A stretch of DNA of 64,000 nucleotides from Sulfolobales archaeon. GTDB lineage: Archaea > Thermoproteota > Thermoprotei_A > Sulfolobales > AG1. The stretch is from assembly GCA_038881635.1 (NCBI GenBank), contig JAVZPJ010000004.1, positions 93,824 to 157,823 of the forward strand, read 5' to 3'. Shown one piece after another: positions 46,634 through 50,516 of the stretch. Position 1 is the first letter of the stretch, and every line of letters begins with the position of its first letter. The position numbers were made by a program, and so were the translations under genes. The notes beneath the pieces were generated by a model. That model saw only the letters and a program-made list of their open reading frames with translations, was not told where the DNA came from and searched no databases.

Positions 46634-47890
46634 CTAACTCTTCTTTCTACCAAGCTTTTCATGAGCTCTAGCTAGGTGTCCTGCTGCTATTGCTGCAATC
46701 AGATTCACTTCTCCAGCTAGTACTGCTGCAGCTATTATCTCGGCAAATTTCACTGCATTAGAACCCGGAGGATTTCCAGGACCTGCTACTCCTAGAATGC
46801 TTAGAGCCTCTCTCTGAGTAGGAAGCCATGTTCCTCCTCCCACGGTTCCCACCTCCAGACTTGGAAGCGTTACTGAGACATATAGATCTCCGTTTTCTCT
46901 CTCCTCCATCCATGTATATGTTATGCTGCTCTCAACAACCTGAGCCACATCTTGTCCTGTGGCTATGAATACTGCTGCTATAATATTAGCTGCATGAGCG
47001 TTCTGCCCGATCCCTCCTGCTAGAGAGGTTCCTAGCATGTTCTTCCTCAGATTTACCTCTATCATTGATCTGACATCTGTCTTGAGAATCTTTTCAACCA
47101 CATCAGATCTTATAACAGCTTCTGAGATAACAGTCTTACCCCTACCCAGGAGAGTGTTTATGTATGTAGGCTTCTTATCAGTACACATATTACCACTGAG
47201 AGCAATCAGATCTGCTTCCGGAAAACTCTGTTCTATAAATCTACAAGCTACATCAGTTGCTATAGTGACCATATTCATACCCATAGCATCTCCCGTTGTA
47301 AATCTGAATCTAAGCCACACATTATTCCCGATAATGAAAGGTTCTATAGATTGAAGTTTCCCATGTTTTGTAGTGCTTTCAGCAATCTTCTTAATCTCGT
47401 TAAAATTCTCTCTAACCCAAGCTATGAATTCTCTAGCTTTACTCGCGCTAGGAAGCTTAAAGAGAGGAGCTCTGGTCATTCCATCTCTTAGAACAATAGA
47501 ATGAGCACCACCGCTTAAGGTTATAGCCTTAGCTCCTCTCGATACACTAGCTACAAGAGCTCCCTCAGTTGTTGCCATAGGTATATAGTATTCTCCAATA
47601 GCATTCTCACCATTGATCTTGAGAGGTCCTGCAACTCCTAGAGGTATTTGAACTGCTCCAATAGCATTCTCAATATTTCTTCCTATGATCTCTTCGAAAT
47701 CTAGGATGTTATGTCCTATGCTTGGAAGAGATACTCCATACTTCTTCTCAATATATCTCCTCCTGATTAGAGTTCCTAGATTCTTGCTTCTAACAATATC
47801 ATCGATTTCGCTGAATCTAATCTCTCCTTTCTCAAGTTTTTCATGAATCTCATTAGAGATCTTTTCTATATCAATATTCTCATTAGACAT
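46634..47890 (-). CDS. hmgA: Hydroxymethylglutaryl-CoA reductase
   Basis: A 418-residue class I-like HMG-CoA reductase, making mevalonate for archaeal lipids. Catalytic residues are visible in [18 protein letters not shown] (Glu), [13 protein letters not shown] (Lys), DVAQVVESS (Asp) and AAGHLARAH (His). It is the fourth gene of an operon with HMG-CoA synthase, a thiolase-like protein and DUF35, three bases downstream of the latter. The ATG has a weak GAGATAAG region before it. Confidence 0.96.
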
Positions 47891-47893
47891 AGC

Positions 47894-48304
47894 TTATCTC
47901 ATACCCTCTGCAGGTGCGAATTTTATACCATAATAGATCAATCCTGTAGATCCGTCTACTACAAGTCTTCTTAGAACTGCTTCAACACGCATTCCAGGAG
48001 TTATCTTATCTGGTTCTACATCAACTATCTGAGCTAGCATGCTGAACCCTTCTTCCAACTCTACTAAGCCTATGATCAGAGGAGAAAGATCTCCAAATCC
48101 TGAGGGAGTTTGATATAGTATCGTGTACTCTTTAACAACACCTCTACCACTAGAATATCTATACTCCACATCCTGAGATCCGCAATACACGCATCTAGCT
48201 CGTGGAGGATAGAAAGCCTTCCCGCAAGACTTGCACGTGGCATACTTAAGTCTGTAGAGGATATCTCTACTTCTCCAGATCTTAGCAGGAGATCTCCTGA
48301 GCAT
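47894..48304 (-). CDS. Zn-ribbon/OB-fold DUF35 protein of the mevalonate complex
   Basis: A 136-residue DUF35 protein: a rubredoxin-like zinc ribbon with CKSCGKAFYPPRARCVYC near 24-42, followed by an OB-fold. In methanogens a DUF35 protein bridges acetoacetyl-CoA thiolase and HMG-CoA synthase and shares a CoA site. Here it lies between the thiolase-like gene and hmgA, consistent with that scaffold role. GGGTGAG precedes the ATG. Confidence 0.9.
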   Translation of the reverse strand: MLRRSPAKIWRSRDILYRLKYATCKSCGKAFYPPRARCVYCGSQDVEYRYSSGRGVVKEYTILYQTPSGFGDLSPLIIGLVELEEGFSMLAQIVDVEPDKITPGMRVEAVLRRLVVDGSTGLIYYGIKFAPAEGMR

Positions 48305-48305
48305 C

Positions 48306-49454
48306 TTATCTCACCCTCTTCAATATAATGACATAACTTGAATCTCCTGTTCCATTCATATTATGCACCGCTCCATATTCTATCTCTCCTAGAATAGAGC
48401 TCTTAAAAGATCCTAGTAGTGCTTGGAAGACCTCATGGATCTGATATATCCCGGTAGCACCCCATGGATTCCCTCTAGCTTTAAGACCTCCACTTAGATT
48501 GACGTGTACTCCTTCAATTGATGAGTTTTCTAATCTCTCAGGAGCTTCACCTCTCTCAGCTAATCCCATGGATTCTAATATTATGAAGGCGTTTGGAGTG
48601 TAGTTGTCATGTATCTCTATATATTTGATCTTTCTTCTCTCAATTCCAGCCATTGATAGAGCTTCCTCCCAGCTTTCTCTAACAGATCTAAATAAGAGAG
48701 GATCTTCTCTTGATGCGATGTCTTTAGAATCTACAGAACCTCCAAAACCTTCTATAGAAACTATGGCATCAGAAGATCTCTCTATAGCATCCTCGGAAAC
48801 TATGTATAAAGCTGCAGCACCGTCTCCCAGAGGATATGAATCTAGCAATCTCAAAGGCTCGGCTAGTACTGGCGAATCCTTGTAGCTATCAGGAGAAATC
48901 CTGAATCTAAGCTGTGCATGCGATGTCTCGAGCGAGTTTTGATGCATTGTATAAGGCCATATAAATAGATCCTCATAAGAGTAGTTATACTTCTTCATAT
49001 AAAGCTTAGCAAGTATAGCAGCTTCAGCTAGTGGTGTGATTCCTTGAAGCTGCATATACTCTGAATCCTTTATAGAACCATAGACACCAGCCATTCTAGA
49101 CACAGACATTTCAGATCCTTTGTCAACTCCTATGACGAGAACTCTTTTACTAGCTTTAGAAGTTGTGAGAGAGTATGCTAGTTGCACTGCTGCAAGACCT
49201 GAAGCTTCTCCTGCTTCAACTCTGTAGACTCTGATCTTTCTGAGTCCAAGATGATCTGCTATTAGATCAGCTATAGAACTCTGATAATCTACAAGTTCCG
49301 GGGTCATTGAAGATATGATGAGAGTATCCGGAACCAGATCTTCTGCATAGCTTTTCTCAATAGATTCAAGAGCTTCTCTAGCTAATGTCTTGAGATTCTT
49401 CTCATAATATCTATCGATCTTTATAACTCCTGAGGCTGCTATGAAGCTTTTCAT
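48306..49454 (-). CDS. Thiolase-fold protein with substituted catalytic residues
   Basis: A 382-residue thiolase-superfamily protein in the place of acetoacetyl-CoA thiolase. In archaeal thiolases the nucleophile lies in a CASG motif; here it is RVEAGEASG, with Glu83 in that place. The KGHP histidine is Asn329 (KARGNPWGATG). The histidines in EIHDNYT (282) and VHNMNGTG (364) are kept. It is therefore unlikely to carry out a Claisen condensation by the usual route. It may be a scaffold in the HMG-CoA synthase/DUF35 complex, with an active thiolase elsewhere, or a decarboxylase-like variant. It starts four bases after HMG-CoA synthase. Confidence 0.85.
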   Translation of the reverse strand: MKSFIAASGVIKIDRYYEKNLKTLAREALESIEKSYAEDLVPDTLIISSMTPELVDYQSSIADLIADHLGLRKIRVYRVEAGEASGLAAVQLAYSLTTSKASKRVLVIGVDKGSEMSVSRMAGVYGSIKDSEYMQLQGITPLAEAAILAKLYMKKYNYSYEDLFIWPYTMHQNSLETSHAQLRFRISPDSYKDSPVLAEPLRLLDSYPLGDGAAALYIVSEDAIERSSDAIVSIEGFGGSVDSKDIASREDPLLFRSVRESWEEALSMAGIERRKIKYIEIHDNYTPNAFIILESMGLAERGEAPERLENSSIEGVHVNLSGGLKARGNPWGATGIYQIHEVFQALLGSFKSSILGEIEYGAVHNMNGTGDSSYVIILKRVR

Positions 49455-49458
49455 CTGA

Positions 49459-50511
49459 TCACCTCTCGTATTTCAAGATCTTTTCTCTCATCTTAGCATA
49501 CCTACCATAGTCTATATAGATCTTCCTCGAGATCATGTCGGAAACCTTAGGAGCTTTATCTCTTTTCTCAACAGCTTTCTCTGTCACTACTATAGCATAG
49601 GCATCAGCACCTGCGCCACTGCCGAATGGTGCTAGAAGAATTCTAGATCCGGGCTTAGCCTCCTCAAGAACCTTAGCCAGACCCATTAAAGCAGATCCAT
49701 TATATGTATTTCCTATATATGGTGTGACCAGACCTGGAAGGATCTTCTCTTTCTGGAATCCTAGCTTAGCTCCTACCTGAAGAGGAAACTTACCATTAGG
49801 CTGATGGAATACTGCGTAGTCAAAATCTGCAGGCTTATAACCTTTAGAGAACAAGCCTTTAACAGCGTTTATAATATGATCGAAGTAGGCTGGCTCGCCA
49901 GTGAAAGCTTCACCATGCTCAGGATAGGGAGCAAGAGATCTTCTCCAGAAATCAGGAGTGTCTGTAATATAAGAATACGCATCTTCTATAACTGCTGCAG
50001 CATCTTCAACACCTCCTATGATGAGAGCAACACCACCACTGCTAGCTGTGAGCTCGAGAACATCACCTGGAGAAGCTTGAGCTGTGTCGGCGCCTATAAC
50101 TAGAGTGTATCTCGCAACTCCTGTGTTTACTAGGGACATACTGATTCTAATAGCTTCTGATGCAGCTCTACACGCGAATTCGAGATCCGAGGCGAGTTTT
50201 GATGCTGGGATCCCTAGCGCGTCTCCTATTACTGTTGCTGATGGCTTGACGGAATATGGTTTAGATTCTGTTCCTACGAATACTGCTCCTATATCGCTAG
50301 GGCTGATCCCGGCTCTCTGTATAGCGTATTTAGAAGCTCTCCATCCTATAGTGATTGTATCCTCATCCAATCCTCCTACGGCTTTCTCTTCAATCCATAT
50401 AGCCTTCGGCGTGTAAGGATCTATACCCCATAACGAGGCTATGTCACTTGCTTTCACTCTATATGGAGGTATGTAAGCTCCCCAGCCTGTAATCCCTGAT
50501 TTGATCGTCGT
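49459..50511 (-). CDS. Hydroxymethylglutaryl-CoA synthase (probable ACG start)
   Basis: HMG-CoA synthase of archaeal type, about 350 residues if started at 50511. Catalytic residues: Glu in GTESKPYSVKP, Cys in EFACRAASEA, His in FHQPNGKFP. The first ATG/GTG/TTG in frame is GTG 50457, but this would remove the conserved SGITGWGAYIPPYRV strand. That segment is encoded upstream, and the frame is closed by a TGA at 50520-50518. GGTGAT at 50522-50517 stands five bases before ACG at 50511, so initiation at ACG is inferred. It leads the operon HMGS-thiolase-DUF35-HMGR. Confidence 0.93.
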   Translation of the reverse strand, partial: TTIKSGITGWGAYIPPYRVKASDIASLWGIDPYTPKAIWIEEKAVGGLDEDTITIGWRASKYAIQRAGISPSDIGAVFVGTESKPYSVKPSATVIGDALGIPASKLASDLEFACRAASEAIRISMSLVNTGVARYTLVIGADTAQASPGDVLELTASSGGVALIIGGVEDAAAVIEDAYSYITDTPDFWRRSLAPYPEHGEAFTGEPAYFDHIINAVKGLFSKGYKPADFDYAVFHQPNGKFPLQVGAKLGFQKEKILPGLVTPYIGNTYNGSALMGLAKVLEEAKPGSRILLAPFGSGAGADAYAIVVTEKAVEKRDKAPKVSDMISRKIYIDYGRYAKMREKILKYER

Positions 50512-50516
50512 ATAAT

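Follow-up and report, generated by a model that had tools for sequence, protein, structure and literature searches.

Among the closest known counterparts of the protein considered here is the acetoacetyl-CoA thiolase of Methanothermococcus thermolithotrophicus (6ESQ/6ET9; NF053570), which has the same fold and likewise has DUF35 and HMG-CoA synthase (HMGS) neighbours. DUF35 mediates a tight association of thiolase and HMGS in the M. thermolithotrophicus complex, with a shared CoA site (PMC12329534). Known thiolases depend on a Cys acyl-enzyme (PMC3406046). The thiolase-fold protein encoded in our window, by which we mean the whole 64,000-nucleotide stretch of DNA from a Sulfolobales archaeon that was analysed, has the HD motif and the GGLKxRG-type loop in common with the M. 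thermolithotrophicus enzyme, but differs from it in having Glu/Asp in place of the Cys, a changed GHP His and a glycine loop that is degraded in its clade.

Individual features of the window's protein are also found in several other systems. The Ltp2-ChsH2 and Sal-Shy aldolases pair a thiolase fold with a DUF35 partner and operate without Cys acyl-enzyme chemistry, as would be the case here; they differ in using the Tyr of a YDHF/YDCY motif, where the window's protein reads HDNY, and in being partnered with steroid hydratases rather than with HMGS (PMC12329534). The YDxF/Y motif with the catalytic Tyr is thus absent from the window's protein, and YDTY-like sequences occur in part of family f2 and in some outside copies. 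MsTLP1 of Mycobacterium smegmatis is a thiolase fold in which the nucleophile Cys has become Gly and which has no thiolase activity, although it is a monomer with an extra domain and no HMGS/DUF35 operon role is described for it in PMC3406046. The structure 4yzo, a 'putative acyl-CoA acyltransferase' with an NTSGSG motif, is a solved DUF35-type thiolase fold without Cys at the nucleophile place, but is of Ser type, and its relatives in family f8 do not lie beside HMGS. Finally, the PhlABC acylase (PhlB, DUF35; PhlC, thiolase fold; PhlA) likewise has three components, with DUF35 as the scaffold (PMC12329534), but its reaction in Pseudomonas protegens is the C-acylation of phenolic compounds (PMC6392133), and it does not belong to a mevalonate operon.

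The thiolase-fold gene of the window lies in a minus-strand operon with the order HMGS (to 49459), thiolase-like gene, DUF35 and HMG-CoA reductase (HMGR), a tight cluster with gaps of 1-4 bp. This is the position in the mevalonate operon, between HMGS and DUF35, that a preliminary description of the locus had given it. The features are:

49459..50514, minus strand: archaeal HMG-CoA synthase (TIGR00748, 463 bits, above cut-off)
48306..49454, minus strand: thiolase-fold putative pseudo-thiolase, 382 aa, with Glu83 for the nucleophilic Cys and Asn329 for the GHP His
49206..49208, minus strand: codon 83 (Glu, GAA), occupying the place of the nucleophile in VEAGEASG
48609..48611, minus strand: codon 282, the retained His of the HD motif (EIHDNY)
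48468..48470, minus strand: codon 329 (Asn, AAT) in GGLKARGNPWGATG, opposite the His of GHP; lineage-specific
47894..48304, minus strand: DUF35 protein (zf-ChsH2 + OB_ChsH2_C; PF12172 + PF01796), four zinc cysteines intact
46634..47890, minus strand: HMG-CoA reductase, last gene of the cluster (TIGR00533, 513 bits, above cut-off)

The thiolase-fold frame opens with ATG and is uninterrupted. Its product scores 85.5 bits with Pfam Thiolase_C_1, above the cut-off of 28, and falls under the curated cut-offs of NF053570 (200 vs 600 bits) and NF004720 (271 vs 420 bits). Alignments to two solved archaeal thiolases (7yvy, E 3.8e-55; 6esq, phmmer E 4.6e-42) agree in placing Glu83 opposite the Cys of EAACASG and Asn329 opposite the GHP/GHA His. 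Both replacements proposed in the preliminary description are therefore borne out. The fold and the other histidines remain, as it had also stated, with His171 and His282-Asp283 kept. The C-terminal N-x-G-G-x-G loop is absent, this segment reading NMNGTG. The partner HMGS has its catalytic Glu84, Cys116 and His238 intact (stop-to-stop frame numbering), and the best solved match of the operon DUF35 is chain E of 6esq, which in the archaeal thiolase/HMGS complex is the DUF35 subunit. Identification of this DUF35 protein as Trf, the Sulfolobus translation recovery factor (6htj), was considered and rejected, with 33 bits vs 91 to 6esq chain E. The coordinate 50514 given for HMGS marks how far its frame stays open; at 50457-50514 of the window (minus strand) no ATG, GTG or TTG precedes the conserved SGITGWGAYIPPYR, and translation may begin at ATC or ATT, both rare as start codons, or the sequence may be imperfect in that stretch.

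Replacement of the nucleophile by an acid is not confined to the window's gene. In a 139-row alignment, the HMGS-operon copies of five families of the order (f1, f2, f5, f6 and f11) carry Glu (48 rows) or Asp (25 rows) and no other residue, i.e., an acid in 73/73 rows. All orthologues of f1, the window's family, that include the site read GEASG, while GE/GD forms are found in f2, f5 and f6, and GDASG or related forms in f11. The sister genome, Desulfurococcales archaeon EvPrim.Bin15 (contig WYEN01000107.1), encodes a protein 67% identical to that of the window, again with GEASG and GNP, and was the only match in a scan of the named genomes with a single-sequence query. When f8 is included, position 83 undergoes 8 parsimony changes in the clade, several of them D-E switches, against 20 for the median column, and outside f8 it stays D/E throughout the acid clade; residue 82, just upstream, switches too, from Ala to Gly. 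The Asn329 replacement is of a different kind. Among acid-type copies it is confined to the window genome, the sister genome and one further genome (G083), most acid copies keep GHP, and GNP also occurs in two Cys-bearing copies, so that Asn329 is no mark of inactivity and was dropped as a hallmark. Where the preliminary description had read the two changes as a joint signature of inactivity, Glu83 thus holds up across relatives as Glu/Asp, whereas Asn329 is local and not diagnostic. Over the 73 rows, position 329 is H in 49, Y in 21 and N in 3, and His282 of the HD motif is retained in 62. The C-terminal glycine loop of the Cys types (N365, G367, G368) is degraded in the acid clade, in which K112, H171, N319 and GGLKxRG are invariant; Cys types show little or no variation at these columns either.

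A protein search of 59 relatives, which recovered homologues in 57, is the source of our unbiased linkage count, and in it all but one of the acid or degenerate copies in the tree adjoin HMGS, the exception lying at a contig end. The later and wider survey was drawn through HMGS, so its linkage counts are biased. The catalytic Glu, Cys and His of HMGS are invariant in 92/92 non-Cys-linked loci, and the zinc Cys of DUF35 in 89/89 loci.

In an IQ-TREE phylogeny of 104 rows, the non-Cys copies of the order group together in a single clade of 46 (99/99). Another clade lacking the Cys lies outside the class and comprises f21, f25, f35 and f37 (12 rows, 100/97), with Gly, Ser, Thr, Asp or Glu at the site; the Asp copy of G014 branches deeply, between these two clades, and G021 displays a lone loss of the Cys to Leu. 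The Cys is ancestral when the tree is rooted with outside Cys copies, and it has been lost at least three times independently in Thermoproteota, namely in the order clade, in the f21/f25/f35/f37 clade and in G021. At the HMGS-linked locus of G021 (L202:2923-5195), the Cys to Leu change is accompanied by HD His to Arg and GHP to GEV, and no DUF35 was found beside this thiolase. HMGS-linked Cys thiolases were seen outside the order at L160, L162 and L163 (f33) and at L137, L138 and L140 (f19, f24). Family f2 carries both types: its Cys copy lies apart from HMGS and has a DUF35 of its own, and its Glu copy adjoins HMGS and is accompanied by a DUF35 of another lineage. This makes the Glu type an old paralogue tied to HMGS.

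The thiolase-like gene is under purifying selection but, in contrast to Cys-bearing copies, its rate of evolution is roughly double that of HMGS. Against the sister genome, NG86 dN/dS is 0.245/1.75 (~0.14) for the thiolase-like gene, 0.099/1.97 for HMGS and 0.239/1.61 for DUF35, ratios that are approximate because dS is near saturation. The thiolase/HMGS distance ratio is 1.4-2.4 in non-Cys families vs 0.5-1.3 in Cys families. A catalytic residue lost while the gene is held by purifying selection is the pattern by which a pseudoenzyme is recognised.

If the HMGS-linked protein no longer makes acetoacetyl-CoA, a second thiolase should exist, and the search of the genome proposed in the preliminary description located two with an intact Cys. 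The first, at C1:11171 (L001), has DMVCSSG, GHP and CHG; the second, at C4:290 (L002), has RQCASS, GHP and CVGGG and scores above the cut-off of the acetyl-CoA C-acetyltransferase model NF005033 (671 vs 511 bits). Every sampled genome of f1, f5 and f11 has a PF00108 match above 200 bits, as do all sampled f6 genomes but the incomplete G047; of these matches, those of the window's own genome had their catalytic Cys read, and the others are candidate thiolases judged by score. In f2, f21, f25, f35, f37, G014 and G021, inspection of representative genomes revealed other thiolases with an intact Cys. With the exception of f8, at least one such thiolase is present in each non-Cys genome in which the further copies were inspected. 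In f3, f4 and f9 (unlinked Cys copy) no canonical thiolase was found in the sampled genomes except G049 of f9. The link from non-Cys copy to canonical thiolase is one-way, since the Cys-linked G024, G033 and G040 also have a canonical thiolase. In f8, Gly, Gln or Glu copies adjoin HMGS and HMGR is present, but a search of its genomes (L054, L060, L064, L065, L194) for a Cys thiolase gave none, only the 4yzo-related Ser variant NTSGSG, which makes that family an exception to the pattern of external acetoacetyl-CoA supply. Thiolase-HMGS adjacency is not essential, because f9 keeps HMGS-DUF35(-HMGR) clusters without a thiolase in between (L081, L082, L084, L090, L094); other sampled f9 genomes have a Cys thiolase elsewhere, with no DUF35 neighbour. 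A separate locus of the window's own genome, L067:6021-9364 (G000:C1:108000-122000, minus strand), holds tandem thiolase-fold genes without Cys beside two DUF35 genes. This pair, of which similar examples occur in several genomes of the order, scores above cut-off with NCBIfam PRK06065 and just below with PRK06066, and in its first gene YDPF takes the place of the YDHF/YDCY of DUF35-linked aldolases; judged by sequence, it is possibly a DUF35-dependent aldolase or a heteromer.

We propose, with a probability of roughly 0.62, that the pseudo-thiolase is a structural or regulatory subunit of the HMGS/DUF35 assembly and that a separate thiolase supplies acetoacetyl-CoA. The protein would be a paralogue, of ancient origin, of the archaeal acetoacetyl-CoA thiolase and would have lost acetoacetyl-CoA synthesis, a loss argued for by the missing Cys, the degraded glycine loop, the availability of substitute thiolases and the relaxed rate. 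It would have been retained as part of a putative physical complex with HMGS and DUF35, as its faithful place in the operon, a DUF35 of its own and purifying selection suggest. Acetoacetyl-CoA would be made by a Cys-bearing thiolase elsewhere in the genome and might arrive at HMGS from solution or via the retained CoA-facing surface of the pseudo-thiolase. Since DUF35 ties thiolase and HMGS together in the M. thermolithotrophicus complex, a role in structure or docking suggests itself most readily. This is the first of two alternatives in the preliminary description, an inactive scaffold kept for the complex or a new activity, and operon placement, intact HMGS and DUF35, purifying selection and the accelerated rate all fit it, with inactivity and complex formation presumed from these features. 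A literature search returned no earlier account of an inactive HMGS-linked thiolase, its scope not extending to the 2018 archaeal-complex structure paper. An AlphaFold model built from two sequences was poor (pLDDT 42).

The main uncertainty is that a pure scaffold has no obvious need for an acid at position 83, yet D/E is kept outside f8; for the most part, His282 and the polar character of residue 329 (H, Y or N) have likewise been retained. Our guess is that the acid, at the start of a buried helix, might stabilise the fold or a neighbouring His/Tyr/Asn. This carboxylate might act as a helix cap where the nucleophile used to be, form a pair with residues 282/329, or have a catalytic part. 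The strictness of the carboxylate therefore keeps the new-activity alternative in view, in which carboxylate and retained His serve as base, acid or metal ligand in a non-covalent acyl-CoA reaction such as retro-aldol, decarboxylation or hydrolysis of acetoacetyl-CoA or HMG-CoA. D or E has also arisen in independent f21/f35 copies, E/D with two His is the commonest active-site combination and D-His-Tyr the next, and the Cys-free thiolase-fold/DUF35 relatives Ltp2 and Sal are retro-aldolases (PMC12329534). However, His282 is missing in 11/73 rows and the other active-site positions vary or are degraded, a non-acid residue replaced the Cys in independent losses (G, S, T or L) and in f8 (G or Q), the rate is accelerated, and the conserved operon contains no extra metabolic gene, so we regard a new enzyme as unlikely. 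That the clade is alive with a carboxylate-His-His/-Tyr centre, perhaps metal-binding, and performs in much of the order a new acyl-CoA reaction of non-covalent type, or a quality control linked to HMG-CoA synthesis, is doubtful, and we hold it only tentatively.

It is also quite improbable, in our estimate, that the protein is catalytically dead but binds acetoacetyl-CoA or CoA at a shared site and passes it to, or regulates, HMGS. The intermediate of the M. thermolithotrophicus complex is handed on without release, and the complex has a shared CoA-binding site (PMC12329534); the invariance of K112, H171, N319 and GGLKxRG would agree with retained binding, although it may be purely structural. 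Continued acetoacetyl-CoA thiolase activity, with Glu/Asp or another residue standing in for Cys, is very improbable: the operon position speaks for it, as does f8, which keeps HMGS and HMGR with no Cys thiolase found, but characterised thiolases use a Cys acyl-enzyme (PMC3406046), the GHP His and the glycine loop are altered too, and the window's own genome has intact thiolases. A decaying pseudogene or a sequencing error, the latter named as a risk in the preliminary description, can practically be set aside, for although the gene evolves faster than HMGS, its frame is intact, its dN/dS is ~0.14, the acid is universal in the alignment, the sister genome independently has GEASG and GNP, and Cys (TGT/TGC) to GAA alters all three codon positions, so that a single base error cannot explain Glu83.

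Archaeal membrane lipids come from the mevalonate pathway, and the accepted picture of thiolase and HMGS as one channelling machine rests on one solved archaeal complex. Across much of one order of archaea, including this heat-loving archaeon, the thiolase of that complex appears to be a pseudoenzyme, and channelling there could therefore not work as described. By the same token, genes of the window's type would be misannotated if labelled acetoacetyl-CoA thiolase. Because the Cys has been lost several times over while the partners stayed, what the thiolase subunit does structurally can be tested separately from its chemistry. In this archaeon and most of its relatives, a gene without its nucleophile has been kept over very long evolution, probably as the structural partner of the next enzyme.
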